Source: Candidatus Electrothrix rattekaaiensis
GTDB taxonomy: Bacteria > Desulfobacterota > Desulfobulbia > Desulfobulbales > Desulfobulbaceae
Direction: 5' to 3'
Assembly (NCBI GenBank): GCA_032595675.1
Contig: JAVQMD010000002.1
Span: 868,001 to 932,000, forward strand
Length of the DNA: 64,000 nt
The translations under genes and the position numbers were made by a program. Position 1 is the first letter of the stretch, and every line of letters starts with the position of its first letter. Shown in pieces: positions 35,784 through 58,986 of the stretch. The notes under the pieces are model-generated. The model was not told the origin of the DNA. It made no database searches and saw nothing but the letters and a program-made list of their open reading frames with translations.

Positions 35784-35786
35784 TCA

Positions 35787-40900: not shown

Positions 40901-41853
40901 AGATGGTCACCATGACTGTGGAAGGCCGGGAACGTTACCCTGTGCAGGTGCGCTATCAACGGGAGCGGCGGGACTCGGTGGAGGCACTGAAGCGCATCCT
41001 GGTCACCGCCTCCACGGGAGAACACATCCCCCTGGCCCAGCTGGCCGATATCCGCTATGTGCGCGGCCCGCAAATGATCAAGAGCGAGGACACCTTCCTG
41101 ACCGGCTATGTCCTGTTTGATAAGAAAAAGGGTTTTGCCGAGGTGGACGTGGTCGAGCAGACCCGCAGCTTCCTGGAGGAGAAGATCGCCAGCGGCGAGC
41201 TGCGCATTCCGCCGGGTGTCTCTTACACCTTCGCCGGTAATTACGAGAATCAGATCCGGGCGCAGAAGCGACTTTCCGTGATCCTGCCCCTGGCCCTGCT
41301 GGTGATCATGCTGATCCTCTATCTCCAGTTCCGTTCCCTGGGCACCACCATGATGGTCTTTTCCGCCATCCTGGTGGCCTGGTCCGGCGGCTTCCTGATG
41401 ATCTGGCTCTACGGGCAGGACTGGTTCCTGGATTTTTCCCTCTTTGATACCGATATGCGCAAACTCTTCCAGGTCCACGGCATCAATCTCTCCGTGGCTA
41501 TCTGGGTGGGCTTCCTGGCCCTGTTCGGCATTGCCACTGACGACGGGGTGCTGATGGCGACCTATCTGGATGAATCCAAGGCTCGTCTCAAAGATAAGGA
41601 GGGGAAAACCCGGCAGGACATCCGCGACATGGTCCTGCACGGGGCGCAGCGGCGCATCCGCCCGGCCCTGATGACATCGGCCACCACCATCCTCGCCTTG
41701 ATCCCGATCCTGACCTCCACCGGACGCGGCTCGGATATCATGGTTCCTATGGCTATTCCTTCTTTTGGTGGAATGATTATTGCCATGCTAACGGTGTTTG
41801 TGGTGCCTGTGTTGTATTGTTGGGTTGAGGAGGGGCGGGTGAAGGCAACCTGA
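37936..41853 (+). CDS. cusA: Heavy-metal RND efflux pump, CusA/CzcA family
   Basis: This 1305-residue inner-membrane proton-driven pump exports Cu(I)/Ag(I)-like or divalent metals through CusB and CusC. The start region has the family pattern (VDAIPDIGENQQIVFTKWAG). The TM4 motif region is around GIAIAIGTIVDMGIIICEN, and the C-terminal half has EFMPFLDEGSFLYMPTTMPHAG and IATDDGVLMATYLDES. It is some 250 residues longer than E. coli CusA (1047). The extra length includes additional hydrophobic segments after the sixth TM helix (about residues 545-690) and a loop rich in charged residues (about 780-880). It is separated from cusCB by 10 kb. A second, 5'-truncated copy is at 56736-58986. Confidence 0.93.
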   Translation: MNSPNQHLPPATSLVSAIIRFCLLNKMVVALLLLAVTGWGLMVAPFDFNLGGLPRDPVPVDAIPDIGENQQIVFTKWAGRSPQDMEDQVTYPLTVSLLGLPGVKTVRSYSMFGFSSIYVIFDDSVEFYWSRSRLLEKLSSLPPGTLPDNVKPTLGPDATGLGQIFWYTLEGRTPEGKPAGGWDLAELRSVQDWYVRYALMGASGISEVASIGGFVKEYQIDVDPDALHDRGVSLEEVFAAARQSNIDVGARTIEINRVEYVIRGIGFVKSIKDLEQSVIKAVDNIPIRISDVATVSLGPALRRGVLDKAGSEVVGGVAVVRYGDNPLAAIERVKEKIREISPGLPSKTLADGTVSKVTVVPFYDRSGLIHETLDTLKIALSEEILITIIVILVTVMHLRSSLLISALLPLTVLMAFIGMKVFGVDANVVALSGIAIAIGTIVDMGIIICENILTRLDEAGPEESTLRIIYDASVEVGGAVLTAVATTVVSFLPVFTMQAAEGKLFKPLAYTKTFALISSVIIALTVLPPLAHVLFRRKKAGKASRKIRFALPVLLIIAGTILAWKVHLLGLVVVGFGLYRLILQFLPKKVLPVLTRLENWLVILLVTVLLARSWQPLGIEKGDWANFLFVGLLIGGLLGSFQVFQWLYPHLLRLFLRWKLIFLIFPLLVVIGGAMVWLGVPKLTGWMPDSIRRAKPMMSLAHSFPGLGREFMPFLDEGSFLYMPTTMPHAGLTEIQEVLAAQDRAITAIPEVESAVGKLGRAETPLDPAPLSMIETIINYHPEYLKDEKGNRLLFAWRADRKDFCRSPEGVLLKAGDGMPYLVQGRFERDERGGLIPAASDAPSTEGRPFRLWRTALDPAINPDREPWPGIEDTDDIWNEIVQAAEVPGVTSAPKLQPIAARIVMLQSGMRAPMGIKVKGPDLATIEQVGLDLERLVKQVPSVSPLTVLADRVVGKPYLEIVIDREAISRHGIKLGRVQEVISAAVGGKMVTMTVEGRERYPVQVRYQRERRDSVEALKRILVTASTGEHIPLAQLADIRYVRGPQMIKSEDTFLTGYVLFDKKKGFAEVDVVEQTRSFLEEKIASGELRIPPGVSYTFAGNYENQIRAQKRLSVILPLALLVIMLILYLQFRSLGTTMMVFSAILVAWSGGFLMIWLYGQDWFLDFSLFDTDMRKLFQVHGINLSVAIWVGFLALFGIATDDGVLMATYLDESKARLKDKEGKTRQDIRDMVLHGAQRRIRPALMTSATTILALIPILTSTGRGSDIMVPMAIPSFGGMIIAMLTVFVVPVLYCWVEEGRVKAT
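39597..41850 (+). repeat. cusA 3'-half duplication, copy in intact gene
   Basis: This segment of cusA is repeated in direct orientation at 56736-58973. The copies differ by scattered, mostly third-position changes, and by a short indel (intact gene has PAASDAPSTEG, copy has PDPEG, near residue 840). A 275-base stretch (41086-41360 against 58210-58484) is identical. Confidence 0.9.
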
Positions 41854-42005: not shown

Positions 42006-42536
42006 ATGAATCAGCCAACAAGCCAGCATACCTATTCGGAACTCACGCAGCAGAATCCATGTAACGGCTGCCCAGCCCCCTGCTGCCGAATGCAGATTCA
42101 TGCCTGCCTGCCTCCCTCGACGCTGATGAACATTGATCATATTCGTTATTCCCTACTGTTTCCTAATACGGAGCTGACCATAGCCAGAGGTGGCGAGTTT
42201 TCCTACATCCGCTGGGAAACATGCAGCCAGTTTGATGAAAAGGAATGCACCTGTAAACTGCATAATACGTCGCAAAAACCTTTGACCTGTCTGCATTACA
42301 ACCCGCATAATTGTTGGTACAAAAGAAATTTTACCACAGCCACTGCGGAAGACCTGTGTCGGTTTGACAGCCAACGGTTTGAACAATGGGTTGCGAAAGT
42401 TGGGTTCGACGAAGAGGGGAAGGTTATTGATGCCCCGGATTTTGAAGAAACAAAGGCACTGGCTCAGGCTCACCAGATACAACCTCTGTTTAAGTTGGAT
42501 TCGGAACTCCGTAAAGGCAGCTTGCAAACGACATGA
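42006..42536 (+). CDS. YkgJ-type CxxCxxxCC cysteine-cluster protein
   Basis: The product is 176 residues with an N-terminal NPCNGCPAPCCRM motif and further cysteines in ETCSQFDEKECTC and LTCLHYNPHNC. This matches the YkgJ family of small proteins thought to bind zinc or an iron-sulfur cluster. Function is unknown. It is the first gene after intact cusA and is followed after 13 bases by the EEP gene, so it probably belongs to the cluster. Confidence 0.75.
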   Translation: MNQPTSQHTYSELTQQNPCNGCPAPCCRMQIHACLPPSTLMNIDHIRYSLLFPNTELTIARGGEFSYIRWETCSQFDEKECTCKLHNTSQKPLTCLHYNPHNCWYKRNFTTATAEDLCRFDSQRFEQWVAKVGFDEEGKVIDAPDFEETKALAQAHQIQPLFKLDSELRKGSLQTT

Positions 42537-42549
42537 GGAGAGGCAAGAG

Positions 42550-43818
42550 ATGACACAGATATTGTTTTGGAACTTGATGAATTTCTCCATAAAGCGCATC
42601 CAAGGTACAACGAAGGCTAATGCGCCGCTTGCCGCACAGTCGCTTCAAAATATTCTGAGCGCGGTCCAAGGCAATGCTCCGGCTGATATCTTTGCGTTGA
42701 TAGAACTGCCTCCTGGTCCTGGTGGTGTTAAGGCACAGGGAAACCTGATTAAAAAAGGGAGTTCTTCCCAAGGGGTCATCACGCTGATGAGTGATTTGAA
42801 TAAAGCGGCTGGCGGCAAAACAAATCCTTGGAAAATCGTTCCCCCTGTTGTAACCGGAACGGGTGGTAAAGCCGAGGGGCTAGCGGTTTTTTACCGGAGT
42901 GACAAGTTAAAATTTGTGGGACCATGGAAGCATACAGGAATATTAGGTGGAGCTACCCAGTTTCCCGGAGTAAATCCTTCCACCCCCTATCCAAAGCCTT
43001 GGGACAACTGTCTGCCTGCCGGGACGACCCAGGGGGGACAATGGGAGTATAAGGACAGTATCGGTAAAATTATAGAGTATCCTCAGGCGGGCGAAAGAAG
43101 GCCTTGGAGAGTTCAATTCCAAGATAATAATAAGAATGAGTTCGACATATTCGCTTTTCACGCCCCCTTCGGTAAGACTGTTACGATCAGAAGGACCGCT
43201 GCCTTAAGCCTATCAAAGACACCGGATATTATCGGCCCCATGACAGGGCTTAGCTACCCGGCTAAGCTAAATTACGCAAGAATTCTTGGCGGTGATTTTA
43301 ATCTTGATGCGAATGCTCCCCAGGACTTAAACGCCCTTAACTATTTGACCCTTCCTCCAAATGGTCCTTTTACAGGAGAGTTTCTTACATTTATAAAAGG
43401 AGCGGGCTATTATAAAACAAGCATCCGTGCGAATAAATACGCGCTTATTACAAAGGGTAACTACCCTTTTTACGAATATGCTGCAAGTGCCTATGACCAG
43501 ATATTTACAATGCGTCAAAACAACATCCTTCCAATATTAACAGTATCCGGCCAGATGGTCGTCAACCAGGTCATAGGGGCTGATGCTTTACATGCGGGGC
43601 CTCTTCCCCCCAAAGGCGGCGCATACGGTCTTCAAACTACGCTCCCAGGTGCCGGTACAGCTGCCAATGTCAGCTATCCATGCAGAATGGCAAATGACAT
43701 CGCATCTATCTATTCGAATTGGCCAGGGAAAAAAGATGCATGCTTTCGTAATATAAACAACTACGGCCACATCCGTAGAACCAGCGACCATATGGGCGTG
43801 GTCATTGACGTATCGTAA
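42550..43818 (+). CDS. Endonuclease/exonuclease/phosphatase-fold protein
   Basis: The product is 422 residues from the ATG at 42550, chosen because AGGAG lies before it; the frame runs upstream into the previous gene. EEP-fold motifs are in order: ILFWNLMNFS (N-terminal Asn), ALIELP (metal-binding Glu), FDIFAFHAPF, GGDFNLDAN (GDFN motif) and SDHMGVVID (catalytic SDH). Such enzymes cleave phosphodiester bonds in nucleic acids or lipids. There is no signal peptide. It sits in the cluster of large beta-rich proteins and could be its enzymatic payload or an independent gene. Confidence 0.8.
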   Translation: MTQILFWNLMNFSIKRIQGTTKANAPLAAQSLQNILSAVQGNAPADIFALIELPPGPGGVKAQGNLIKKGSSSQGVITLMSDLNKAAGGKTNPWKIVPPVVTGTGGKAEGLAVFYRSDKLKFVGPWKHTGILGGATQFPGVNPSTPYPKPWDNCLPAGTTQGGQWEYKDSIGKIIEYPQAGERRPWRVQFQDNNKNEFDIFAFHAPFGKTVTIRRTAALSLSKTPDIIGPMTGLSYPAKLNYARILGGDFNLDANAPQDLNALNYLTLPPNGPFTGEFLTFIKGAGYYKTSIRANKYALITKGNYPFYEYAASAYDQIFTMRQNNILPILTVSGQMVVNQVIGADALHAGPLPPKGGAYGLQTTLPGAGTAANVSYPCRMANDIASIYSNWPGKKDACFRNINNYGHIRRTSDHMGVVIDVS

Positions 43819-43841
43819 GACATGAGAAGCAGAGATAGAGC

Positions 43842-45167
43842 ATGAGCCTTACAGACTTGGCAAATTTCCTGATCAATCGACTCCCCGAGGCCGGAACAGG
43901 CACTATAATTCTGAACGAGGCAGCACTTAGCACGTCTGAGGGAAGCAACGTGACCGATGTGTTGGCGGATATCAATGCCTATCTCGCGATCCCGGAAGGT
44001 AGCTACCTTGAGATAACGAATCTCAGCCGAAGCGATATCACAGTGCCTGCGGAAGGAGACCCTCTTGTAATAACTATCGGAAGTACCAGCTTTCTGCATG
44101 TGGACATGACGGTAAAAAACTTAAATTTTTACCTGGAAGGTACCACCACCAAAACTCTTCAGGTAGCTCTACAGACCGTAGAGTTCCCGACCGATTGGAC
44201 TCTGGGCACAAGCTTTCCCAGCCTTATCACCTTTCCCGCTCTTGACGGGCATCTCACGAACAACTCCTACATCTTCCTTTCCGGTGCCGACAACAAGACA
44301 GACTGGCCCGTTACCTCGACCGTAACCAAAACTATTGCACGGGGGCTGAACTACTACGGCGAGTTAGGCCTCAATATCTCTCCTCTATCCCAAGCGAACA
44401 ATTTTCTTCGTTTCATCAAAGCCGAAAGCATACCGACAACTATCGGTATATTCGGAACAATAGACCTGAAAAATCCGTTGGAAGGTTTCACTCTTACCTT
44501 CCCGACGATGACCCTCATCTCGGATCCTATCGGTTCAGGTGGCCCTTTTAAACCATTCAGCGTCGTGAACTATGATCAGCTTACCTTAAATAGCCCTGTC
44601 ATCGGAGTCAGGACACTTGAGGTTGAGGTGGAAGAGAGAGAAGGTAAGTATCAGGACGTAACCACGGAACTTCGCTTTGCTGTAGAACTCCATGTCACCG
44701 AGAGTATCGCTCTCGATTTCTCGGCGACTTTAATCGAAGATGCCCAGTTTTTGATGTTCGGTGCCTACGTTACCGATGACGGCAAAGATATATCCCTTGA
44801 TGACATAAAAAATCTTATGCTGGATGAATCATGGGATGAGCATATTCCGGCGGTGTTGAGCGACGCGTTGCAGACCATCCAATTCCAAGGTTTTTCCATG
44901 ACCGCCTTTTTTGACGGATTATCGGAGTTCACTATCAGCACCATATCGGTCTATGTGGGGTCAGACCCATCGAAACCGATAAGGCTGCTACAGGAGCTAC
45001 CAGGCTTTACCGACCGAGGAGACGATTTCATTTTCAACGTGCATTGGACCATGATTAGTCCGACAGATACGACTTACAGACAGAGCATGCTTTCTTTCTC
45101 AACAACCGTGACCATGACTGTGGACGACAAGCCCCAAGAGATCGAGGTGGAGATTGCAGGATATTAA
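43842..45167 (+). CDS. Unknown protein of the DUF6603-like cluster
   Basis: The product is 441 residues, mostly beta-strand pattern with alternating hydrophobic and Thr/Ser residues, and no signal peptide or TM segment. It begins MSLTDLANFLINRLPEAGTG. I do not recognise a named domain. It lies 23 bases after the EEP gene and 46 before the DUF6603-like gene, on the same strand. It may share an elongated beta architecture with its larger neighbour. Confidence 0.6.
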   Translation: MSLTDLANFLINRLPEAGTGTIILNEAALSTSEGSNVTDVLADINAYLAIPEGSYLEITNLSRSDITVPAEGDPLVITIGSTSFLHVDMTVKNLNFYLEGTTTKTLQVALQTVEFPTDWTLGTSFPSLITFPALDGHLTNNSYIFLSGADNKTDWPVTSTVTKTIARGLNYYGELGLNISPLSQANNFLRFIKAESIPTTIGIFGTIDLKNPLEGFTLTFPTMTLISDPIGSGGPFKPFSVVNYDQLTLNSPVIGVRTLEVEVEEREGKYQDVTTELRFAVELHVTESIALDFSATLIEDAQFLMFGAYVTDDGKDISLDDIKNLMLDESWDEHIPAVLSDALQTIQFQGFSMTAFFDGLSEFTISTISVYVGSDPSKPIRLLQELPGFTDRGDDFIFNVHWTMISPTDTTYRQSMLSFSTTVTMTVDDKPQEIEVEIAGY

Positions 45168-45213
45168 CAGTCAGGGACAAGAAATCTTATCCTTTTTTTG
45201 ACAGGAAAATATT

Positions 45214-48200
45214 GTGGTCGAAAAGAACAAAAATTTAATTGTGGAAGGAAGGTTCTACGGAGACCTCAACCTCTGGTCTTTGATGAAGATGCTCGGCGCA
45301 ACTGCAAAACCCGACTTTGACGCCGATCTTTACGAACTTTTTATCTCGGTTCAAACGGGCGATACGCCCAGCTATCATCTGGAGGCAGCCGCTTCGGTGG
45401 ATGTAAACATTGCCGGTTCAGATATTGATCTCGCTATTGAAGGGGCTTACTTTTCACTTGATTATACGAAAGGCCCCCCCGCAACGTGGTCGGTGAACTA
45501 TTCGGGCTATCTCAAGCTGATGGAAACCGGCCTCTATATCTATGGAGCCGTTGGCTCGTCATCGGGCGGGTTGAGCCTTACCGGCACCATTCAAATGGGT
45601 CATGCTGAGTTCAGTGTTGACTTCAGCAAATCAAGCAGCGAAAGCACCATCACCGCGACCATGCAGACTGGCGGTTCAGTCACGCTCCAGGAGATTGTTT
45701 ACGCCCTTGGTTTTAGCGCCTTCAACATACCTACGGAAATTGATCCGAGCTTCCGGTCAGCCAGTATTTCCTACGACTTTGGCTCAGCAAAATGCTTTTC
45801 TCTGGCTGGCTCCCTCACTAATAGAGATGAGGCCGTATTCGCCGCCGTAGAAGATAACGGCAAGTGGATTTACTTCTTCGGCATCAAAATCGCCCAGACG
45901 CTGAACCTTTCAAATCTTCCCCTGATTGGCAAGGAATTAAGCTCTGCCGAGACGCTGATGATTGAGGATTTGCTGCTGCAAGTCTCGTCGGCACCCTTGA
46001 CCGCTCAAGACGCTGCCAGATTTAATGAAGTCATACCGAGCGGCTATCCAGCCGTGCCGTCCTCCGGTTTGGCCGAGGATTTTGCATTTTTCATGACAAT
46101 AAACATTGGGGGAGAGAAGACAACAATTGATGTTGGTAACTCTTCCACAAGTCAATCAGGCGGTTCAACCAATGAAGGTGCGCCAATAACGCCAGGCACG
46201 GCGCAAAATCAAAATCCAAGGTCGCCTACTCCATCTGACAGTATTAAGTGGATCAACATTCAAAAAAATCTTGGCCCCGTCAACTTTCAAAAAATTGGCG
46301 CGCGCTATGTATCTGCGGCGCAATCGCTTTGGTTCGAGATCGACGCCTCGTTGGCGATGGGGCCGCTGACGGTGAGCATGGACGGGCTGGGTATCGGCTC
46401 TTCCATCAAGGATTTCGAACCGCAATTCAGCCTGCAGGGGATGGGTATTGCCTGGTCCAAGCCGCCACTTGAGGTAGCCGGTGCCTTCGTCAATATGAAC
46501 CCGGCAAGTGGTCTTGAATTTGAGGGCGGCGTGACCATCGGCGCGGAGAACTTCGAGCTTCAGGCCTTCGGCTTCTACGGCGATCAGACCGGCTCGCCCT
46601 CAATGTTCATTTTCGGCGACATCGCGCACGATTTCGGTGGACCGCCAGCCTTCTTCGTGACCGGTGCTGCAATGGGGTTGGGCTATAATTCCAATCTGCG
46701 GTTACCCACCGTCGATCAGGTAGCGAATTTTCCCTTTGTTCAGGTACTGCCTAATGCCAACCCGTTCAATAGCAACGCCTTGCATGATGATCGGACGCCG
46801 CTCGGGGTGTTGCAGACCATCATGGGGGCAACCCCGCCGTGGGTGACGGAACAGCAGGGCTCACTGTGGTTTGCGGCGGGCATTACCTTCACCAGCTTCG
46901 ACATCGTTAATTCCCAAGCCCTGGTTGCCGTGGAAACTGGAGCCGACCTGACGATCTCGCTGCTCGGCACCTCCCACGCCCAGTTCCCGCAGCAGGGTCA
47001 GACCCATTACGCCAATATCGTGCTTGATCTGGATGCGGTGTTCAAGCCGGAAGACGGTGAATTCAGCATTCAGGCGGTGCTGGACAAAAGTTCTTTTCTC
47101 ATCGACCCCGCTTGCGTGCTGAGCGGCGGCTTCGCCTTCTGCATCTGGTACGGGGACAACCCCCATGCTGGCGATTTCGTGTTGACACTGGGCGGTTATA
47201 ACCCGTGTTTTGTGCCGCCCAGCTATTACCCGACCGAACCAAAGCTGGGGTTCAACTGGGCGCTTGACTCTTCCATCACCATCAGCGGAAATGCCTATCT
47301 CGCCTTCACCCCGTCGGTCATGATGGCGGGTGGCGAGTTATCGGCTGTCTACCAATCGGGTAATCTCAGGGCGTGGTTTGATGCCCATGCAGATATCATC
47401 GTTCACTGGAAGCCTTTCTGGTTTGATGCTGATATTGGTATCTGTGTAGGTGCTTCCTACCGAATCGACCTTCTGTTTACTTCCTGTACCGTTTCTGTAG
47501 AGCTTGGTTGCAATCTGCAACTGTGGGGGCCGCCCACAGGAGGCAAAGTGCATGTAGATTGGTATATTATTTCATTTACTATCCCTTTTGGCGCAGAAAA
47601 CAATCATAGCATCAAGGAGTTAACTTGGCAAGATGTCGAAAAAATGCTGCCCAACACTGGCACGGCCACGTCCCGCAACATCCTGTCGTTGACACCGACG
47701 GCAGGGGTAATGCCGCCCGGCCAACCCAAGGCGTCCGATATCTGGGTGGTGCGCCGGGGCAATTTTGCCTTTACTGCCAGCTCGGTTGCACCGGCAACGA
47801 CGGCCAGCGCTGGTAATGCACAGTCCTTGCGGCCCTTGAGCGGTAGCAGCTTCAATGTGGCGCCGCTGAACTGGACCGGCGTATCTGCCAGCCATGCCGT
47901 GATCATCACCAACTCGGGTGGCGATGACGCCAGCGCGCACTTCAGCGTCAACCCCATCTACAAGAACCTGCCCGCCTCGCTCTGGGGCACGCCGACGCAG
48001 TCGACACCCACGGGGGATGCCCAACTGGTCATGAATCAGTTGGTCGGCGTTTCGGTCGAGATCAACCCGCCACAAGCCGGAGCCACCGCCGGGCCGGTGG
48101 CGATAGCCAATCTGGCACATGACAACCTTGTCCTGACCGGCGCCGTGTTGCCGATCGACAGCGATGCGCAGCCGGTCGGTAGCGTGCCGGCCTATAGCGC

Positions 48201-48390
48201 CAGCAGCGTCGCTACTATTACCGACGCGAGCAACGGGGTCGCGGCCACGGCCACGATATCCGCCCGGAACGCGATCTTCAAGGCATTGCAGGGGATGGGG
48301 TATGCCCCCGTCACCAACAACAGCGACATGGCCAGTTTCAACACCCAAGTCGGGACGGCCTTGAATGACGAGCCCTTGCTTGTCGCATAA
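45214..48390 (+). CDS. Very large beta-rich protein, DUF6603-like
   Basis: The product is 1058 residues from a GTG start. It is composed of repeating amphipathic strands with many Gly/aromatic turns (GAVGSSSGGLSLTGTIQMG). The segment GAAMGLGYNSNLRLPTVDQV with FPFVQVLP further on resembles what I recall of the DUF6603 family of large uncharacterised proteins. The last 250 residues form an Ala/Thr/Pro-rich region. There is no signal peptide. Possibly a tubular or lipid-binding beta structure; this is inference. Confidence 0.6.
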   Translation: MVEKNKNLIVEGRFYGDLNLWSLMKMLGATAKPDFDADLYELFISVQTGDTPSYHLEAAASVDVNIAGSDIDLAIEGAYFSLDYTKGPPATWSVNYSGYLKLMETGLYIYGAVGSSSGGLSLTGTIQMGHAEFSVDFSKSSSESTITATMQTGGSVTLQEIVYALGFSAFNIPTEIDPSFRSASISYDFGSAKCFSLAGSLTNRDEAVFAAVEDNGKWIYFFGIKIAQTLNLSNLPLIGKELSSAETLMIEDLLLQVSSAPLTAQDAARFNEVIPSGYPAVPSSGLAEDFAFFMTINIGGEKTTIDVGNSSTSQSGGSTNEGAPITPGTAQNQNPRSPTPSDSIKWINIQKNLGPVNFQKIGARYVSAAQSLWFEIDASLAMGPLTVSMDGLGIGSSIKDFEPQFSLQGMGIAWSKPPLEVAGAFVNMNPASGLEFEGGVTIGAENFELQAFGFYGDQTGSPSMFIFGDIAHDFGGPPAFFVTGAAMGLGYNSNLRLPTVDQVANFPFVQVLPNANPFNSNALHDDRTPLGVLQTIMGATPPWVTEQQGSLWFAAGITFTSFDIVNSQALVAVETGADLTISLLGTSHAQFPQQGQTHYANIVLDLDAVFKPEDGEFSIQAVLDKSSFLIDPACVLSGGFAFCIWYGDNPHAGDFVLTLGGYNPCFVPPSYYPTEPKLGFNWALDSSITISGNAYLAFTPSVMMAGGELSAVYQSGNLRAWFDAHADIIVHWKPFWFDADIGICVGASYRIDLLFTSCTVSVELGCNLQLWGPPTGGKVHVDWYIISFTIPFGAENNHSIKELTWQDVEKMLPNTGTATSRNILSLTPTAGVMPPGQPKASDIWVVRRGNFAFTASSVAPATTASAGNAQSLRPLSGSSFNVAPLNWTGVSASHAVIITNSGGDDASAHFSVNPIYKNLPASLWGTPTQSTPTGDAQLVMNQLVGVSVEINPPQAGATAGPVAIANLAHDNLVLTGAVLPIDSDAQPVGSVPAYSASSVATITDASNGVAATATISARNAIFKALQGMGYAPVTNNSDMASFNTQVGTALNDEPLLVA

Positions 48391-48403
48391 CAAGGAATAC
48401 GCC

Positions 48404-50662
48404 ATGAGTGACGACCAATCAACCCGTGCCTTTGCAAAGCTGCAATCGCCACCACCGTTAAACAATATTCAGTTCTACGACGGCTATGTCCCGACACTAC
48501 CGGACGGTACCTATACCATCGGTCTGAAATACACCCTGACGCCGCCAGACACTTCCGAGGTCCAGTCACCTTCTTATACGAAATCACAAAAGTTTACCAT
48601 TCAGGGACCCGAATTTACTCTTGATCCGGCAGTCATCGACACAATCTATCCTCCTCATGGCGGCAATCATAAATACGACCACGATTTACCATTTGTCGTG
48701 CTGAAGGATCCATCACTTCCTTGGGAGCGAAGTCTGGTGCCGGACGCTGAGCCTCAAGAAGGACATACTCCACTTTCCTGGATGGCATTGCTGCTACTTG
48801 CCAAAGATGACATTATTATGCCGACCGGTACGGACAACCCCGTAACAACGACCACCGTAAACGATTTTCTGGCGGCTGATTCGAGTGGCAAGACGCTTAA
48901 GCCGACACTGCCGAGCGGCTGGGTTTCCTCCGACTTGGATAAATCGCAGTGCCAGACCATCACAATTCCCGGCACGGTTTTCAACAAGGTCATGCCCACA
49001 AAAGACGACTTAGCCTATCTGGCCCATTGCCGTGCCGTCAATACCGCTGACGAGGGCGGCCAACTGCTGAGCGTGATCCTGGGTAACCGCCTGGCGGTTG
49101 CCGCCCAATCACCGGTGCGCTATTACGCCCACCTGATTTCGCTCGAGGGCTATGCCGACTATCTGGGGCCCAATGGCACGGCTATCCCGACCCAAACCGG
49201 CGCCAGTGAATTAATGAACGTACAGCTTGCCTCACTCTTTAACTGGAGCTTTGTATCGCAGCCCGAAACGGGCCTCAGTTTCAAGGCCTTGCTGCGGAGA
49301 CTGATTAAAAGCGAAAAGGCAAATAAGGGTTTGCTCTGCCTGTCCATCCCCCAAGGCTCAACGCCGCCAGAGGAGGTAACGGCTCGGCTGAAAGAAGGCT
49401 ATGCGCCATTGACCTTCAATGCTGCTGGCGCCAGAGACCAGAGCTTTGCCTGGTATCGCGGACCGTTTTCCGCTGTCATGCCGCAGGCCCTTCCGAACGT
49501 GGGCGAAGAGCAAACGCCGGTGCTGCAGGCCAAGAATGCTGATGCATTGATGATTTACCTGGAAGCGCAAGGCATATTCGACCTAAGTTATGCCGTGGCG
49601 TGGAATTATGGACGCAGCCTCGCGCTGTCCGACGCCGTTTTCGCGCAGGACCTCTGTGCTTACAGAAAGAAAGCCCATTCGACGACGACCAAGCTGGCGC
49701 AACGACTCTCCATGGGCCGACTATCAAACCAACCACTCGACCGACTCACAGCCCACGACGTAGTGACTCAATATTTTACGAGCCAAATGGTGAACGGATT
49801 GGGAAATAAGATAAGCGCCGCCATGAATGCCGGCGGCCCGGTGGCTGCGGCAGCCTCACGGCCTGCGAAGGTAACACCGCAAGATGTACTGGAGATGACA
49901 GACGCATCAACGGTGCTGACGGACGCGACATCCGAGCTGCAAAGCTCCGTGGTGCACTGGCTGGCGCGGCTACGGCGTTTATCTCTGCTTCCGTTTTCCT
50001 GTCTGGTGCCCGACCCTCGTATGTTACCGGTGGAGTCGATTCGTTTCTTCTATTTAGACCCTACTTGGCTCAATGCGCTGACGGCGGGCGCCTTTAGCGT
50101 CGGCATACACGGTTCCGCCGATGCTGAAATTCAGAGCAAACTATTACCTGCCTTGATGTCGGCGGTGCAGAGCGAAGAGAAGACGCTGTATAGCCGCACC
50201 TATTCCAACGGCGCAGCAGGCACCGGCAAGGTCAGCGGATTGTTGATTCGTTCGCAGCTAATATCTGCCTGGCCGAAACTAGTGGTATCCGCCACGTCTG
50301 GAGGGGCGCCGGTCAACGTCATACGCAACGATTGCCTGGCTCCGAACGTCAGACTCTGCCTGTTCGACGGCATACCCGATACGGTATCACTGGCAGAGCC
50401 CTATCATGGTTTGCAATTTGGCATTGAAGATAACGGCATTGTCCTGCGCAATATAACAACAGCTGGCTCGATCGGTGCTCAAACCAACGCGACACCAGTG
50501 AATCCTAGCTACCGCGATACCTCAAGCGGAATTATTGATGTGGCGGCCACGGCACAAAGCCTTGCCACAGCGCTTAGCACATCAACCATAGGCTCAGGAG
50601 ACTTCGCCTTGCAGATGGTCAAGGCCCTGGAAATGAAGTTGTTTCCGAGCAGTACGAATTAG
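48404..50662 (+). CDS. Unknown 752-residue protein of the cluster
   Basis: The start is the ATG at 48404 (MSDDQSTRAFAKLQ), which has AAGGAA before it; the longer frame begins inside the previous gene. The N-terminal 100 residues look like an immunoglobulin-like beta domain (DGYVPTLPDGTYTIGLKYTL). This is followed by IDTIYPPHGGNHKYDHDLP and PFVVLKDPSLPWERSL. I do not know a function. There is no export signal and no TM segment. It is directly followed by the 1226-residue gene (9 bases). Confidence 0.6.
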   Translation: MSDDQSTRAFAKLQSPPPLNNIQFYDGYVPTLPDGTYTIGLKYTLTPPDTSEVQSPSYTKSQKFTIQGPEFTLDPAVIDTIYPPHGGNHKYDHDLPFVVLKDPSLPWERSLVPDAEPQEGHTPLSWMALLLLAKDDIIMPTGTDNPVTTTTVNDFLAADSSGKTLKPTLPSGWVSSDLDKSQCQTITIPGTVFNKVMPTKDDLAYLAHCRAVNTADEGGQLLSVILGNRLAVAAQSPVRYYAHLISLEGYADYLGPNGTAIPTQTGASELMNVQLASLFNWSFVSQPETGLSFKALLRRLIKSEKANKGLLCLSIPQGSTPPEEVTARLKEGYAPLTFNAAGARDQSFAWYRGPFSAVMPQALPNVGEEQTPVLQAKNADALMIYLEAQGIFDLSYAVAWNYGRSLALSDAVFAQDLCAYRKKAHSTTTKLAQRLSMGRLSNQPLDRLTAHDVVTQYFTSQMVNGLGNKISAAMNAGGPVAAAASRPAKVTPQDVLEMTDASTVLTDATSELQSSVVHWLARLRRLSLLPFSCLVPDPRMLPVESIRFFYLDPTWLNALTAGAFSVGIHGSADAEIQSKLLPALMSAVQSEEKTLYSRTYSNGAAGTGKVSGLLIRSQLISAWPKLVVSATSGGAPVNVIRNDCLAPNVRLCLFDGIPDTVSLAEPYHGLQFGIEDNGIVLRNITTAGSIGAQTNATPVNPSYRDTSSGIIDVAATAQSLATALSTSTIGSGDFALQMVKALEMKLFPSSTN

Positions 50663-50671
50663 GAGAAGAAT

Positions 50672-53600
50672 ATGGCAGATAACAATCCGTTACTTGTTCC
50701 CATGACCGTCGAGGCGCTGGTGGTAAACGATTATGTTCGGGAAAATGCAAATTCTTATGCGGCCTTCGTACGGGCACAGATGCAATATAGCGAGATCGAC
50801 AATAGCGTTACCGGCCCCGGCAACGCCCAAGCCACAACCGCAGACAACGACACAAATTTCACCGCATCGGGCGACATGCCCGATTCAAACACCACAACAT
50901 CAGATTTCTATAACGGGGTGTACCTGAAGTGGCGGCTGCCGAAAGCCTTTACCCGTGGCACACACACCGCAGCGAGTGCCAACACCCAATACCCGCTCGT
51001 GCCGAACAGATGGTTGGTTGTTCGTTATGGCGGCACCAACCTTGCCGACCGCACCGCTACAGCCTGGATCATCGAAAGCGACTATACATGGCCGTTACCA
51101 TTACCTACAGCGCAAAACGCCTCGCAACTCACGACGAGTTTTATGTCCAACGGCGCTACGCCGGAAGAAATACAAATCAGTCGCAATGTTGACGTCACCA
51201 CCACGCCTTGGCGTGAATCAGGTCACAATCTCAAACTCACTGCAATGGGGCCCGGCAATCCGGCTTTTGGCTCCTATCAGCCTCAAAACAAAAATGTTTT
51301 TTCGTTTGTGGATTGCTTGAACGGACAATCAGAGCAAACTTTGAGCTATGCGGTATATGGTTGGTTCTCCAACGCAAATGACGACCCTCTTGCCAACCTC
51401 GGCGCTGCTTCTTTTTCGGACCTTCTCAAATCACTCGGCTGGACGCTTCCAAAAGAAACTGATGCGAACCTGAGCGCAAGCTGGTCCATGCTTTTTGGTG
51501 CGGTAAACGGCGTTCAGTGGCAAACCACCAGTATGCCCAAGGGCGGGGTACCGAGTCCGCAAAATGGGCACTGCCCAATCTCTATCGCGGTAGGCAATAC
51601 CTCGGCTGAAGCTCTTACAGCGCTGATAACAACTCAGGACTCATCCATTGATGCAGATTTCCTCAACGCCTTTCAGCTTGACCTGCTCGATATTCTCGAC
51701 GAGCCCGATGGAGAAGCGGAGCTAAAAGAAAGGTTAAAAGCGAGTTTCTTTCAGAAATATTCCGGCGGACATACATGGACCATTGTCAACGCAGCGGACA
51801 GCACCGAGCAGATTTCTCCTGATGAACTGTCAAAAGAGCGGCAGTGGCTGGCAACTTTAAACCAGAACCAGTCAGATCTGGATGCCGCAATTCTGGAACT
51901 GGCCGAATTGCAAAGGGCGCTCTATGTGATATGGTGGAAGTCTAAACAGCCCTATAAGGTAGTGACCAAATTTATAGACCACAAATTTGAGAAATTACCG
52001 GCCAATCCGAAGCAGCCTGCTCCTTCTTATTTCCAAACTCAATTCGACATGACGAACCAAAGTGGCCTTGCATGGCAAGTTGCACAGCAGAAAACAAAAG
52101 TTCAGAAACTGCTTAACCAAGTGCCGCATGGCGATACGCCGGAAGCTTTGCAGCAAGCGATTACCACCTACGCCCGAGGTCAGGCCCTACCTGCGGCCCG
52201 CGTACTCAAGCGCCAGGCCGCTCCAACCTATTTTGCGCCGAACGATCCGGCAGTCTTGATCACCGGAGTGGGCGCCTCCCAGATTGCAAAAACACCCAAC
52301 TCCATCGAGTGCAGGTTTCCATCGCAACTTGTTACCGGTTTTACATGGGATCATCAGACTATCAATGCACAAACCACCGGTCTGTCCATCCCTCAGCCGG
52401 ATTTGTCCAACATAACCGGCGTACCGTGGAGTGTAACTCTTCTCAATTCCCTGGTGACGGAATTTTTCTTTCTCGACCCAAACAATGCGGGGGCGCTCAA
52501 TGCAGCGGTAGCGGGTAGTGGCAACACACCGGTTTCGGCTACCAATGCAGTTGGAACTTTTCCGGACGCCGTATCATATCAAAACTGGTTACAAAACCCG
52601 TGGCGTCCACTGCTACTTTTCTGGCAAGCCAACTACTACCCGATCGAGTATGGAACCGCAGCATCTCCCAACTGGACGTTCGATGGCGGATACACATGGA
52701 ATGGCGCTAACGCAGCGGTCGGCGAAACTATAGCTTTAAGCGGGATGATCCAGCTGGCTCCAACGGCGGCAAAAAATCTCAATGGCAGGATTACGGCGTT
52801 CTTAAACAACAACCCTAACCTAAGCAACAGCGAAAAAAGTGCTTTCCAGAAGTTGCAGACATACATTACAACGAATAAAGAGAGCGATCTTCTATCGCAA
52901 GCGCTCGATGGCTTTAACAGCCAATTGAGGTTGGCACTGCCGGGAGTCTATCTCAGTCCGTCTTCCTCCTCTAGCCTCGCCGGCTTGATTGGACATACCG
53001 AGACGAAACCGCCGTATTTTCAAGGAGTTGACAGTAAAGGCAATCCTCAGTCTAGCAACTTTCAGCCCTGGCGTGCCGGACAATTTGAATTCACTTCTCT
53101 GGTTGTGGTTGACGAGTGGGGACAGGCCTTATGGCCAATCACCAGCAAAGATGAAGCTACGGAAGATATCTTTATGCCAGCAGATTTAACGCCTGCCCTT
53201 CTGGCACCTGACAACCCTGCTGGCTCAGCCTTAACGGGGAACGCATCCCCGAATACTGGCAAATACCGATTGCAATTGCCACCAGCTTTACTGCAACCGG
53301 CTCGGCTTGACTTCAACCTTATCTCGGCTAGCAATGACAGCATTGTTTGCGGGAATACTCATCCCGACGGCGACCCGATTTGCGGTTGGATCGTTCCCAA
53401 CCACCTCGATGCATCAATCATGGCCTTTGACGCTGCCGGAAATGCATTGGGAGAGATGCTGGTTGATGCGGCCAACACCGTTGTCTGGTTACCGTTACCC
53501 AATTGTCCTGCCAACCTAAATAGCCTGGAAAAGATTTCAATAGCCATTCCCCATTTCGGCCCGTTTCTCTCGCAATTACAGAGCCAGGGCGCCGCTGTTT

Positions 53601-54352
53601 TTAACGATTTTATGAAGGCAATTGACGAAACGCTGTGGACCACCGTGCCGATCGGCACGCACTTCGACAAGAACCTTTCGATTTTAATGGGCAGGCCCCT
53701 GGCTATGGTCCGCGCCAAGCTCCAGTTTTTGCTCGACGGGGCACCCTACCCAGACCCAAGCTGGCAGTATACAAAGGCACCTGCGACGCCGGCGCTGCCA
53801 TCTTACAAATTTGCCATTGAGCTGGGAAACATTGCCAAACTTGAGGATGGCTTGATTGGATATTTCACCAATAAAAATTACGATGCGTTCAACATCGTCG
53901 CACAAGCTTCCTCGTTGAGCGACGGCTACCTGAATACCATAGGCAACAACAATAACTATATCTACCTGCCCTTTGACGGCACAACTTCGATGTATGTCTC
54001 GATGCTAGTCGATCCGCGCGCCGCCGTGCATGCTACGACATCAATCCTACCGGTTGAAGCCCTCAGGATGCCGCCTCGACTGGTCGCCGACGCGCTGGAA
54101 CGGATGACTATGGGGTTCCGAGTAGATGGCATTCTGACGGACCAGACCGTAGATAAATCAGACAACGAGATAGTCTTAATGCCTACGCCCAAAGTAAACC
54201 AGGGGACTTGGTCCTGGAGTGAGAATAATCAGACAGGGTGGACAAACTATGCAACCGGCCCAAATGATCCAGCTGCTCGTCTTTCGAATGTGGCTCCCAT
54301 CTTACGCCGAGGGTACTTGCAGTTGTCGAAGTCAGTAGATGTCAAGAAGTAA
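50672..54352 (+). CDS. Unknown 1226-residue protein of the cluster
   Basis: AGGAGAAG lies just before the ATG. The N-terminus reads NPLLVPMTVEALVVNDYV, then VYLKWRLPKAFTRG and PLVPNRWLVVRYGG. A predicted helical insert lies around residues 340-480, and the remainder is beta-rich. There are no TM segments or signal peptide. Together with the 752-residue protein it looks like a structural component of a particle or fibre. The family has no assigned role that I know of. Confidence 0.6.
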   Translation: MADNNPLLVPMTVEALVVNDYVRENANSYAAFVRAQMQYSEIDNSVTGPGNAQATTADNDTNFTASGDMPDSNTTTSDFYNGVYLKWRLPKAFTRGTHTAASANTQYPLVPNRWLVVRYGGTNLADRTATAWIIESDYTWPLPLPTAQNASQLTTSFMSNGATPEEIQISRNVDVTTTPWRESGHNLKLTAMGPGNPAFGSYQPQNKNVFSFVDCLNGQSEQTLSYAVYGWFSNANDDPLANLGAASFSDLLKSLGWTLPKETDANLSASWSMLFGAVNGVQWQTTSMPKGGVPSPQNGHCPISIAVGNTSAEALTALITTQDSSIDADFLNAFQLDLLDILDEPDGEAELKERLKASFFQKYSGGHTWTIVNAADSTEQISPDELSKERQWLATLNQNQSDLDAAILELAELQRALYVIWWKSKQPYKVVTKFIDHKFEKLPANPKQPAPSYFQTQFDMTNQSGLAWQVAQQKTKVQKLLNQVPHGDTPEALQQAITTYARGQALPAARVLKRQAAPTYFAPNDPAVLITGVGASQIAKTPNSIECRFPSQLVTGFTWDHQTINAQTTGLSIPQPDLSNITGVPWSVTLLNSLVTEFFFLDPNNAGALNAAVAGSGNTPVSATNAVGTFPDAVSYQNWLQNPWRPLLLFWQANYYPIEYGTAASPNWTFDGGYTWNGANAAVGETIALSGMIQLAPTAAKNLNGRITAFLNNNPNLSNSEKSAFQKLQTYITTNKESDLLSQALDGFNSQLRLALPGVYLSPSSSSSLAGLIGHTETKPPYFQGVDSKGNPQSSNFQPWRAGQFEFTSLVVVDEWGQALWPITSKDEATEDIFMPADLTPALLAPDNPAGSALTGNASPNTGKYRLQLPPALLQPARLDFNLISASNDSIVCGNTHPDGDPICGWIVPNHLDASIMAFDAAGNALGEMLVDAANTVVWLPLPNCPANLNSLEKISIAIPHFGPFLSQLQSQGAAVFNDFMKAIDETLWTTVPIGTHFDKNLSILMGRPLAMVRAKLQFLLDGAPYPDPSWQYTKAPATPALPSYKFAIELGNIAKLEDGLIGYFTNKNYDAFNIVAQASSLSDGYLNTIGNNNNYIYLPFDGTTSMYVSMLVDPRAAVHATTSILPVEALRMPPRLVADALERMTMGFRVDGILTDQTVDKSDNEIVLMPTPKVNQGTWSWSENNQTGWTNYATGPNDPAARLSNVAPILRRGYLQLSKSVDVKK

Positions 54353-54394
54353 CAGTCCAGGCAATACGTTAAAACGTGTAAAGGAGATACTCTC

Positions 54395-56608
54395 ATGGAA
54401 AAAACACAGCAGCCAAATCGGCCCAATTGTAGCGTGATCCAGCCAATCGCTGAAAATACAACGCTCACCTATGCACTCCAAACTAACCCCGACCCACTTA
54501 GGGCAGGCTGCAACAAAGCCTCTCTCGAATTTGTCGTAACCAATATCACAGACCAAAATCAAGCGGTGACATCCATTGTTTTTGAACTGCCGGTGGGCGA
54601 TGGCGGACTGGTGCCAACAGTTCAGGGCATCAACACAGAGCTATCAGACACTAACAACTGGAAGGTATCCATTAACCCGTCCAGCGGCATTGCCAACATC
54701 ACGCTGACGCCGCAAAACGGTTACGCCATGCCCGTGAACGCGTCCGTGGTTTTGCAGCTCTACGACTTGCAAACCGTATCATCACCCGGCAATACCAATA
54801 TCACCATCACCGAGAAGATAGGTACAGCGCAGCGTGCCAACGGTGATTTTCAGGTTTCGGTTTTTCCATCGAATTTTTTCTTCGACGGTCTTGTTGCCAA
54901 CATCACTAACGGCAGCCAACTCACGCCGGTTGCTCAGGTCAGCAATGGCGGCGTTGTAACCTTGACCTGGAATTCAACTGTTGCGGACTTGGCCAATATC
55001 ACCATCTATTGGTCAGACCCGAACAAGGACCAGCAGAGTGCCAGCCCCACCGAAAATAGTCAATGGGTATCGCCGGAGTTAACCTTCGATACGGTTTTTA
55101 CCGTCGTGGCAACAGCTCATGTCGAAAATGGACAGTCAATGACCCTGTCAAGGAGCGTTGCGGTTTCGGTGCAGAATCCAGATATATATGCCTCTTTTTT
55201 AAAAGTGAACGGTGGAGCAGATATTAACGGTACGCCAGGTGCTTATCTTCAGTGGAATAGGTGTGAAAATGGAACATGCTCTGGAGGAACATATATCCTG
55301 AATCAAAAAGGATGCCACCCTGGAGGCTTTGTTATCGGAGAGGTGGATACGAAGAATAACGTTACTCCGCAACTCACGATAAACTCTGATGGTTATGTTG
55401 GGATCAACACATCAACACCAATGGAAACTCTGGATGTGGATGGCAATGCAACATTCTCTGGGACACTCCAAATAGGTGCCCCTACTGGTCCTAATAATAA
55501 AGGAGGGCTGTATGTCAATAGTTATGCAGAAATAACTCAGCAAGGTGCGTATCTTCAGTGGAATAGATATGAGAATGGAGTACAATATGGAAAAACATAC
55601 CTCTTGAATCAAAGAGGTAATGGTCCGGGGGGATTTGTGATCGGTGAGGTAGACACAAATAATAACGTTACTGCACAAGTCAATATTGATCCGAATGGAT
55701 ATGTTGGAATTGGCACAGCGACACCAACGGCAACTCTGGATGTGACGGGTAATGCAACATGCTCAGGGACATTCACAGCAGGCAGCATTTCGACGAATAA
55801 AGGAAGTATCAACTGTGGCAATATAATATGCTCAGGGGCGCTCACAGTTAGCGGTGCTGCCCCACGAAATATAGGGCATTTTGGTTTTCTGAATGAGAAA
55901 AATCCAACTGGTCAAAGTCGCTCTGACAGCACTGTTCTTTACTCGATTATAGGAAGTCAGTGCATGACTGCTGTTGAATTTCATGCTACCTCTGATCAAA
56001 GGACTAAAAGAATAATCAGTACCAGCGACAGTAGCCATGATGTAGAAACGATAAAACGCTTTAAAGTAACTGACTTTGTATTTATAGATAAATCAATTAA
56101 AGGAGATAGACCCCAGAAAAAACTTATCGCTCAACAAATAGATGAATTTTTCCCACAAGCTGTTAACAAAACTAATAATGTTATACCTAATGTTTACGCG
56201 CTCAGTCATTCTACACGCTATGACAAAAGTACACATCAGCTTACTATTAAAACAAAAAAACCTCATGAATTCTCTGATGGAGATACTATAAGAATAGTTG
56301 ATGATGTATCCACTCGCGATGTAACTATTTTAGAGGTTTTAGATGAATGTACTTTTGCAATTAACAGTGAAAAAGATATAGATAAAGTTTTTGTCTATGG
56401 AAAATATGTTAACGATTTCCTCGTTATCGACTATGACTCAATATCTGCTCTGCATATCAGTGCAACACAAGAAATTTTACGCCGCCTCGAATCACTAGAA
56501 AATAAATATGAATCAATCAGACAGGAAAACAGTCAACTGAGAGAGTCAATAAAAAAAACACAGTGCGATTCTTGCACTCCGGGATCTGGTTTTAACGATA
56601 TAGAATGA
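54395..56608 (+). CDS. Fibre-like protein with Peptidase_S74 chaperone end
   Basis: The product is 737 residues. Two N-terminal beta-sandwich domains (to about residue 265) are followed by two near-identical 80-residue repeats, each starting GAYLQWNR and ending GYVGI(N/G)T-x-TP-x-x-TLDV-x-GNAT. The C-terminal domain begins at SDQRTKR (Ser533-Asp534) and has KKLIAQQIDEFFPQAV. This is the intramolecular chaperone (endosialidase/S74) seen at the end of phage tail spikes, which folds a trimer and cuts itself off before the Ser. A short coiled coil ends the protein. The last bases overlap the start of the truncated cusA frame. Confidence 0.75.
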   Translation: MEKTQQPNRPNCSVIQPIAENTTLTYALQTNPDPLRAGCNKASLEFVVTNITDQNQAVTSIVFELPVGDGGLVPTVQGINTELSDTNNWKVSINPSSGIANITLTPQNGYAMPVNASVVLQLYDLQTVSSPGNTNITITEKIGTAQRANGDFQVSVFPSNFFFDGLVANITNGSQLTPVAQVSNGGVVTLTWNSTVADLANITIYWSDPNKDQQSASPTENSQWVSPELTFDTVFTVVATAHVENGQSMTLSRSVAVSVQNPDIYASFLKVNGGADINGTPGAYLQWNRCENGTCSGGTYILNQKGCHPGGFVIGEVDTKNNVTPQLTINSDGYVGINTSTPMETLDVDGNATFSGTLQIGAPTGPNNKGGLYVNSYAEITQQGAYLQWNRYENGVQYGKTYLLNQRGNGPGGFVIGEVDTNNNVTAQVNIDPNGYVGIGTATPTATLDVTGNATCSGTFTAGSISTNKGSINCGNIICSGALTVSGAAPRNIGHFGFLNEKNPTGQSRSDSTVLYSIIGSQCMTAVEFHATSDQRTKRIISTSDSSHDVETIKRFKVTDFVFIDKSIKGDRPQKKLIAQQIDEFFPQAVNKTNNVIPNVYALSHSTRYDKSTHQLTIKTKKPHEFSDGDTIRIVDDVSTRDVTILEVLDECTFAINSEKDIDKVFVYGKYVNDFLVIDYDSISALHISATQEILRRLESLENKYESIRQENSQLRESIKKTQCDSCTPGSGFNDIE

Positions 56609-58986
56609 CCCAGCTAGGAAACACTCATCGCCAGCCGCAACCCCACGCTTCCCTGGCAGTAATGGGCAGGGAGGTGCGGCAGGCATATTCCCATTCCGCC
56701 TCTGTGGACAGGCGTAGTGCAGGCCTGGGATATGTTTATTCGATCGTCGTAGGAGCCATTCTGGCCTGGAAGATTCATCTGCTCGGCCTGATCGTGCTCG
56801 GCTTCGGTCTGTACCGCCTGATCCTCCAGTTCCTCCCGAAAAAGATCCTGCCCATCCTCACCCGGCTGGAGAACTGGCTGGTCATCCTGCTGGTCACGGT
56901 GCTGCTGGCCCAGAGCTGGCAGCCTTTGGGCATTGAAAAAGGAGACTGGGCCAATTTCCTCTTTGTGGGCCTGCTCATCGGCGGCTTACTCGGTTTCTTT
57001 CAGATTTTTCAGTGGATGTACCCGCATCTGTTGCGCCTGTTTCTGCGCTGGAAGCTGATTTTTTTGATTTTCCCCTTGCTGGTGGTTATCGGCGGGGCAA
57101 TGGTCTGGTTAGGGGTTCCGAAACTCACCGGCTGGCTGCCGGACAGCATCCGCCGGGCCAAGCCAATGATGAGTCTGGCGCACAGCTTTCCCGGTCTGGG
57201 CCGGGAGTTCATGCCCTTCCTGGACGAGGGCTCCTTTCTCTACATGCCCACCACCATGCCCCATGCCGGGCTGACCGAGGTCCAGGAGGTTTTGGCGGCT
57301 CAGGATCGGGCCATCACCGCCATCCCGGAGGTGGAGTCCGCCGTGGGCAAGCTGGGCCGGGCCGAGACCCCGCTGGATCCTGCGCCCCTGTCCATGATTG
57401 AAACCATCATCAATTATCATCCTGAATATCTGGAAGATGAGAAGGGAAACCGCCTGCTTTTCGCCTGGCGCGAAGACCGCAAGGACTTCTGCCGCAGCCC
57501 TGAAGGGGTGCTGCTCAAGGCTGGGGACGGCATGCCTTATCTGGTGCAGGGGCGTTTTGAGCGGGATGAGCGGGGTGGACTGATCCCTGATCCTGAAGGT
57601 AAACCCTTCCGGCTCTGGCGGGCCGCCCTTAATCCGACCATCAATCCTGACCGCGATCCCTGGCCCGGTATTGAAGATACCGACGACATCTGGAACGAGA
57701 TCGTTCAGGCCGCCGAGATCCCCGGCGTGACCTCGGCTCCCAAGCTCCAGCCCATTGCTGCCCGGATCGTCATGCTCCAGAGCGGCATGCGTGCGCCTAT
57801 GGGCATCAAGGTCAAAGGGCCTGATCTGGCAACCATCGAGCAGGTAGGCCTGGACCTGGAACGGCTGGTTAAGCAGGTGCCCTCGGTCTCGCCCCTGACC
57901 GTGCTGGCCGACCGGGTGGTGGGCAAGCCCTATCTGGAAATCGTCATCGACCGGGAGGCCATCTCCCGGCACGGCATCAAACTGGGCAGAGTGCAGGAGG
58001 TGATCTCGGCAGCGGTGGGCGGCAAAATGGTCACCATGACCGTGGAAGGCCGGGAACGTTACCCGGTGCAAGTGCGCTATCAGCGCGAGCGGCGGGATTC
58101 TCTGGAAGCCCTGGAGCGTATCCTGGTTACCACCTCCACCGGAGAGCATATCCCGCTGGCCCAGCTGGCCGATATCCGCTATGTGCGCGGCCCGCAGATG
58201 ATCAAGAGTGAGGACACCTTCCTGACCGGCTATGTCCTGTTTGATAAGAAAAAGGGTTTTGCCGAGGTGGACGTGGTCGAGCAGACCCGCAGCTTCCTGG
58301 AGGAGAAGATCGCCAGCGGCGAGCTGCGCATTCCGCCGGGTGTCTCTTACACCTTCGCCGGTAATTACGAGAATCAGATCCGGGCGCAGAAGCGACTTTC
58401 CGTGATCCTGCCCCTGGCCCTGCTGGTGATCATGCTGATCCTCTATCTCCAGTTCCGTTCCCTGGGCACCACCATGATGGTCTTCTCCGCCATCCTGGTG
58501 GCCTGGTCCGGCGGCTTCCTGATGATTTGGCTCTACGGTCAGGACTGGTTCCTGGATTTCTCCCTCTTTGATACGGACATGCGCAAACTCTTCCAGGTCC
58601 ACGGGATCAATTTGTCCGTGGCCATCTGGGTGGGCTTTTTGGCCCTGTTCGGCATCGCCACCGACGACGGGGTGCTCATGGCCACCTATCTGGACGAATC
58701 AAAGGCTCGCTTCAAGGATAAGAAGGAGAGAACCCGGCAGGACATCCGCGAGATGGTCCTGCACGGTGCGCAGCGCCGCATCCGCCCGGCCCTGATGACC
58801 TCGGCCACCACCATCCTGGCCCTGATCCCCATTCTGACCTCCACCGGTCGGGGCTCGGATATTATGGTGCCTATGGCTATTCCTTCTTTTGGTGGGATGA
58901 TTATTGCCATGCTGACGGTCTTTGTGGTGCCTGTGTTGTATTGTTGGGTTGAGGAGGGGCGGGTGAAGGGCAGTAAAAAGTACTGA
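56605..58986 (+). pseudogene. 5'-truncated second copy of cusA
   Basis: The frame is 793 residues. The first 45 residues are unrelated to CusA. From about 56736 it follows intact CusA from residue 555 to the end, including the second pore domain and the last TM helices. It lacks the N-terminal half, with TM1-6 and the first porter domain, so it cannot form a pump alone. The ATG overlaps the stop of the fibre gene. The reading frame remains open, either from recency or because it recombines with the intact gene. Confidence 0.88.

Follow-up and report, generated by a model that had tools for sequence, protein, structure and literature searches.

A recurrent cassette of three giant proteins with exchangeable fibre tips and upstream genes in Candidatus Electrothrix rattekaaiensis: a candidate targeting or delivery assembly

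Candidatus Electrothrix rattekaaiensis carries, within a 64,000-nucleotide stretch of contig JAVQMD010000002.1 (the window), a gene cassette for three giant proteins, a member of family DUF6603 and two proteins here called p752 and p1226, preceded by an enzyme gene and followed by a fibre gene. The three giants keep their gene order and are inherited together in at least seven phyla. The N-terminal adaptor of the fibre is kept while its tips are replaced, the gene upstream of the giants is replaced, and the catalytic motifs of enzyme and fibre end are present. The cassette may encode a modular targeting or delivery assembly that is not of phage type.

Features of the locus

An earlier description of the locus from the sequence alone (the first-pass annotation) had listed seven genes on one strand. 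All seven open reading frames were found on the + strand at 42006-56608; window genes are given as positions in the 64,000-nucleotide stretch. The intergenic gaps are 9-46 nucleotides, and a purine-rich, ribosome-binding-like stretch precedes most of the seven starts. The features are as follows.

42006-42536, + strand: cysteine-cluster protein, 176 aa, CxxCxxxCC, 11 Cys; membership doubtful; ends 13 nucleotides upstream of the EEP gene
42550-43818, + strand: enzyme slot, EEP-fold (endonuclease/exonuclease/phosphatase) enzyme, 422 aa; Pfam E 7.5e-5
43842-45167, + strand: N-terminal part of the DUF6603 giant as a separate 441-aa gene; match to the fused relative L011
45214-48390, + strand: core 1, DUF6603 giant, 1058 aa; PF20248, 510 bits
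48404-50662, + strand: core 2, p752, 752 aa; relative in 86/86 loci, 22 invariant columns
50672-54352, + strand: core 3, p1226, 1226 aa; relative in 86/86 loci, seeded by p1226
54395-56608, + strand: fibre gene, 737 aa (adaptor, shaft and S74 end)
54395-55189, + strand: fibre N-terminal adaptor module, ~250 aa, conserved; 109 proteins in 78/86 loci
55190-55990, + strand: beta-fibre shaft with two 78-aa repeats (55234-55468; 55540-55774), from self-comparison; Bd2133 match in the PDB
55991-56608, + strand: S74 intramolecular chaperone end; SDxxxK motif, self-cleavage predicted behind Ser533

The 1058-aa protein scores 510 bits against the DUF6603 profile (PF20248; cut-off 27) and is the family member it had been taken for. 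Neither p752 nor p1226 has a match in Pfam, PHROGs, NCBIfam or PADLOC, and the PADLOC defence families gave no match of weight. A hydropathy scan of the seven window proteins found no hydrophobic N-terminus, in line with the reported absence of signal peptides, and no membrane segment. No sheath, tube or baseplate domain was found in the seven proteins with Pfam and PHROGs, which agrees with the earlier statement that the locus is not a known contractile system.

Two of the seven genes were reassigned. The 441-aa protein, previously counted as a component of its own, aligns to residues 58-316 of a fused 1482-aa protein of SAR324 (L011; E 2e-12) and weakly to other fused DUF6603 relatives; 45 of 80 relatives encode the DUF6603 giant in one uninterrupted frame of 1300 aa or more. 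By these alignments the 441-aa gene codes for the N-terminal portion of the giant, which is split off in the window. The cysteine-cluster protein has no relative in any of the 86 cassette loci described below and for this reason is probably not a component of the cassette.

Conservation of the core across genomes

A first genome scan with a single window protein as query found nothing. An alignment-based scan gave 145 loci, and 80 of these were taken for analysis; a protein search showed that plasmids of Streptomyces, Embleya and Paenibacillus carry the trio, and the plasmid loci brought the analysed set to 86 (numbered with the prefix L). The loci were recruited via p1226, so that the weight lies on the constant presence of the other two core genes. 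The p752 gene adjoins that of p1226 in 86/86 loci, and DUF6603 is present in 80/86. Five of the six loci without DUF6603 lie on contigs that end too early; the sixth, a Paenibacillus plasmid (L007), seems to be without it. The order DUF6603-p752-p1226 on one strand holds in every one of the 80 loci with all three genes. Profile comparison detected no homology between p1226 and p752 or between p752 and DUF6603. One Chitinophaga locus (L162:2905-12531) has DUF6603 in a 3208-aa frame; after it come p752, divided over two frames, then p1226 and a fibre.

Among 247 Streptomyces genomes, DUF6603 was found in 29 and p1226 in 16, all 16 lying inside the 29 (Fisher p 1e-17; a p1226 match in genome G668, with E 3e-4 over 37 positions, was taken as spurious). 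Pairwise distance matrices of the core proteins correlate at 0.93-0.97, and those of the fibre adaptor correlate with those of the core at 0.89-0.91 (permutations gave no more than 0.11), values that are inflated by shared descent. Despite this inflation, the intermingling of phyla suggests joint movement of the whole cassette. Random association of the genes, the outcome which the first-pass annotation had set against itself, is ruled out by the 80/80 order, the core correlations of 0.93-0.97 and the Fisher p of 1e-17. The co-occurrence analysis that it had proposed recovers the genes as one unit, and its term "orphan" is withdrawn: the 86 loci, drawn from at least seven phyla, share this core.

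The hosts of the cassette belong to Actinomycetota, Bacillota, Pseudomonadota, Bacteroidota, Acidobacteriota, Chlorobiota and SAR324. DUF6603 proteins are also known from fungi. Within the phylum of the window, DUF6603 was found only in the window's own genome among 395 sampled, and the same genome alone has p1226 among 96 near relatives. The p1226 tree mixes phyla and groups the window with Marinomonas, Sphingorhabdus, a Bacteroidetes bin and an Acidobacteriaceae bin (support 100); bins may hold stray contigs, and single placements are therefore less sure than the overall pattern. The mixed tree, the plasmid copies and the rarity in the window's phylum indicate that the cassette has spread by horizontal transfer.

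Fibre adaptor and tips

The adaptor module is present as a single copy in the window's own genome. Adaptor-bearing genes follow p1226 in 78/86 loci, with 109 open frames and as many as four in tandem. Of the eight loci that have no adaptor fibre, six have short or truncated downstream sequence. The C-terminal S74 match of the window fibre lies below the Pfam gathering threshold (17.4 bits, cut-off 22). The catalytic motif SDxxxK is nevertheless present as SDQRTK (residues 533-538), and the fibre end matches PHROG tail-fibre families and MyRF in the PDB. The S74 chaperone end named in the first-pass annotation is upheld on this evidence, and the end is predicted to process itself.

C-termini elsewhere are of other kinds: a phage collar domain in Marinomonas, F5/8 type C discoidin domains, propellers, a phage spike domain, and bactofilin-like or haemagglutinin-like repeats. 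Tandem fibres in five loci (L003, L008, L013, L056 and L063) are 78-89% identical in the adaptor and 21-34% in the tip; random tip pairs give 0.291, against 0.292 for shuffled sequence. With adaptors near-identical and tips no more alike than shuffled sequence, the tips are read as being replaced on a kept adaptor. In a gammaproteobacterial bin (L088:5116-9957) the adaptor module lies inside a 1613-aa p752 open frame, a hint that the fibre might dock on p752.

The upstream slot

The EEP-fold enzyme of the window scores 23 bits in Pfam, just under the cut-off of 24.5 (26.1 for its relative in L081), and has the catalytic N, E, H, GDFN and SDH residues, so that the earlier assignment stands. Relatives occupy the same slot in SAR324 (L011) and Paenibacillus HGH0039 (L081), and the catalytic N, E, H, GDxN and SDH are invariant among the three. 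Weak matches to DNase I were found in the PDB.

The gene directly upstream of DUF6603 is variable, with gaps of -134 to 63 nucleotides, mostly 6-27. Besides EEP enzymes (in the window, SAR324 and Paenibacillus HGH0039), the slot holds metallo-beta-lactamase-fold proteins (eight by Pfam match, and those of L010 and L012 by motif only), subtilase, trypsin, and DUF4135 and hemopexin-repeat proteins. It is also occupied by a family resembling glycosyltransferases (weak TAGT match, E 0.011) and, in Streptomyces palmae, by an ADP-ribosyltransferase-like protein. Four kinds of upstream gene occur among the window and the four loci closest to it in the core (50-61% identical), and the glycosyltransferase-like family recurs in three distant core lineages; from these distributions the slot is judged to change independently of the core. 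The idea that the EEP enzyme is a payload gains from this, as the upstream gene appears to vary as a payload would.

Structure models of the giants

Structure prediction, one of the checks proposed earlier, was run on p1226 and DUF6603. The model of p1226, made over the first 1194 residues, is confident (predicted local distance difference test, pLDDT, 85.7; predicted template modelling score, pTM, 0.83). As a whole it gave no Foldseek match in the PDB below E 1 (best VIA Z 5.0) and nothing below E 0.2 in a viral fold library. The DUF6603 model is a long beta meander (pLDDT 76, pTM 0.59), whose best fold matches are ApoB100 (Foldseek) and outer-membrane barrels, at low template modelling scores (TM-scores). 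Against the outer-membrane beta barrels, VIA Z reaches 14.9 at a root-mean-square deviation of 12-17 Å and a model TM-score of at most 0.15, and DUF6603 occurs in Gram-positive hosts without a signal peptide; at most, the model suggests an extended, perhaps amphipathic sheet. A sequence-profile search for relatives of the three giants among solved structures gave none of weight.

Comparison with known systems

Relatives of p1226 and DUF6603 were not found in the 50,697 phage records of INPHARED, nor relatives of p1226 and p752 in the 2.9 million viral contigs of IMG/VR; the DUF6603 alignment has no part sufficiently conserved for a scan of viral contigs. Assignment to an ordinary phage tail, the other outcome named in advance as speaking against the first-pass annotation, is ruled out on these searches. 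In 25 genomes no sheath gene was found near DUF6603, and the genome-wide sheath matches lie elsewhere; with no sheath in the cassette either, a contractile system is rejected. The host genome has a gene of the phage-sheath family 272 kb from the cassette (G000:C2:1186617-1187273), which would belong to a separate contractile system or a prophage.

The mosaic adhesive trimer (MAT) fibres of Bdellovibrio are adhesins with exchangeable tips; the MAT proteins have a signal peptide, then a conserved N-terminal domain, and an SDxxxK self-cleavage motif (PMC10769870). The window fibre shares with them the trimeric beta fibre, the conserved N-terminus, the exchangeable tips and SDxxxK, and S74 or non-S74 ends are common to both groups (PMC10769870); the window shaft matches Bd2133 in the PDB. 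Unlike MAT proteins, the cassette fibre has no signal peptide (no hydrophobic N-terminus) and is accompanied by a three-giant core and an enzyme slot. Its adaptor is taken to be of another family.

Extracellular contractile injection systems (eCIS), for which S74 and hemopexin partners are reported, resemble the cassette in having a fixed core, a variable binding fibre and variable cargo (PMC8213781). The cassette differs in lacking a sheath, tube, baseplate and DUF4157 match, and its core proteins are unrelated. Tc/RHS polymorphic toxins are alike in broad plan, being large beta-rich proteins with a variable toxic part (see also PMC3482391). No window protein has a Pfam match to RHS or Tc domains at E 0.5, and what varies in the cassette are fibre tips and separate genes rather than a toxin at a C-terminus. 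MyRF and endosialidase S74 proteins share with the fibre the Ser-Lys dyad (SDQRTK) and a matching C-terminal segment, a likeness limited to the last 204 residues of the fibre. To our knowledge, bacterial protein-delivery particles all trace to phage tails or Tc/RHS scaffolds. The searched literature (without subscription papers and preprints) gives the cassette no name, as expected if it is undescribed, and contains no mention of DUF6603 or PF20248.

Interpretation

The fixed core and fixed adaptor, together with replaceable tips and a replaceable enzyme, favour a modular, non-phage targeting or delivery assembly, in which the tips bind a target and the enzyme is carried or displayed; we consider the chances of this reading to be about even. 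The three giants would form an invariant core and share one physical complex with the fibre. One or more fibres would dock on the core via the N-terminal adaptor, the exposed, exchangeable C-terminal tips would bind the target, and in many copies the core would carry or display the exchangeable enzyme encoded directly upstream. In the window, the fibre would trimerise via its S74 end, which would afterwards be released by self-cleavage behind Ser533; the enzyme would be an EEP-fold nuclease or phosphodiesterase. The DUF6603 meander, to judge from its model, may contact membrane or lipid. Selection would alter aim and activity and keep the chassis. The resemblance of the tips to receptor-binding and lectin-like domains makes it most likely that the assembly meets surfaces outside the producer; we infer a cargo role for the enzyme, its delivery, and the existence of a target. 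As signal peptides are absent, release would perhaps be by lysis, or by an export route not seen in the cassette. Known eCIS and tailocins are released by lysis.

Several observations weigh against the targeting or delivery reading. The cassette proteins have no secretion signal, and no recognisable lysis, export or immunity gene was found in the cassette. The two giant models (p1226 and DUF6603) do not resemble a known translocator, and the pTM of the latter is only 0.59. Two Paenibacillus plasmids (L004 and L007) are genuinely without an adaptor fibre. In many Streptomyces and other high-GC loci the upstream gene is not recognised as an enzyme; as gene starts are uncertain there as well, the slot may be empty in many of the Streptomyces loci. 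As a whole, the earlier interpretation is partly supported.

An apparatus for surface adhesion or cell-cell recognition, with the core anchoring fibres on the producer, the enzyme a separate processing factor and no delivery, would explain why the tips are binding-type domains and not toxins. The nearest solved fibres are Bdellovibrio surface fibres and MyRF, and MAT fibres are themselves adhesins with exchangeable tips (PMC10769870). Such an apparatus is unlikely, given the absence of a signal peptide (which MAT proteins have), membrane segment or anchor, and an upstream slot that alternates among unrelated hydrolases and transferases. The lack of secretion signals in the hydropathy scan fits an intracellular system, for conflict, storage or lipid-related functions, in which the producer would use the beta-rich giants within its own cell and the fibre-like modules would have internal ligands. 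The likeness of the DUF6603 meander to ApoB100 in Foldseek and the CATRA and CHAT conflict genes near one copy (L003) point the same way. Tips of the S74, collar, discoidin and propeller kinds, however, belong typically to extracellular fibres, and their fast replacement fits variable external targets, which renders an intracellular role quite improbable.

An extracellular, cellulosome-like complex, whose tips bind a polymer that the enzyme digests or modifies for nutrition, would suit the proteases and hydrolase folds in the slot, the lectin-like and discoidin tips and the numerous soil hosts. EEP, metallo-beta-lactamase-fold, DUF4135 and ADP-ribosyltransferase-like proteins are not usual polymer-degrading enzymes, and the hydropathy scan again found no signal peptides; we regard such a complex as quite improbable. 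A degenerate phage tail or prophage remnant is barely credible: the fibre end does match phage tail-fibre families, but the core is kept across phyla and has no relative in the 50,697 phage records or IMG/VR, and no sheath gene lies near DUF6603 in the 25 genomes.

A second class of loci and the surroundings of the cassette

There seems to be a second class of DUF6603 loci. Thirteen Streptomyces genomes have DUF6603 without p1226, several of them with a divergent p752 (hhalign E 1.6e-5 over 72 columns) followed by a 1500-2000-aa protein with no p1226 match. In this class (L148-L161, L163, L167) DUF6603 is often ~960 aa, several loci have the divergent p752 (~840 aa), and hemopexin or WD40 propeller genes lie upstream.

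The cassette is flanked in the window by a full CusA-like pump gene (37936-41853) and by a 5'-truncated copy (56758-58969) that is 90.5% identical to it, an arrangement that may stem either from insertion together with duplication or from recombination at the pump gene. A gene for a PD-(D/E)XK family transposase is located nearby (60679-61563), with PIN and Uma2 genes between. At 31716-36572, a 1355-aa protein that weakly matches nSTAND3 NTPases precedes a TPR protein; the two are a possible STAND-type defence pair. An element of 85-90 bp is present in three copies (88-94% identical) at 9134-9224, 11587-11677 and 12124-12209, and several overlapping internal repeats of 180-490 bp with 73-77% identity lie at 452-1138.

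Implications

It may well be, though at slightly less than even chances, that the cassette represents an undescribed class of delivery particles built on three giants, with interchangeable tips and enzymes, that is related neither to phage tails nor to Tc toxins or secretion systems and has spread horizontally through at least seven phyla. If so, this mobile cassette, carried by antibiotic-producing actinobacteria, by Paenibacillus and by other bacteria, would be an independent solution with the same plan, a fixed scaffold with exchangeable aim and enzyme, on an unrelated core. The cassette also provides a testable context for DUF6603, for which the searched literature describes no role, and for two large protein families that are unnamed in the searched libraries.

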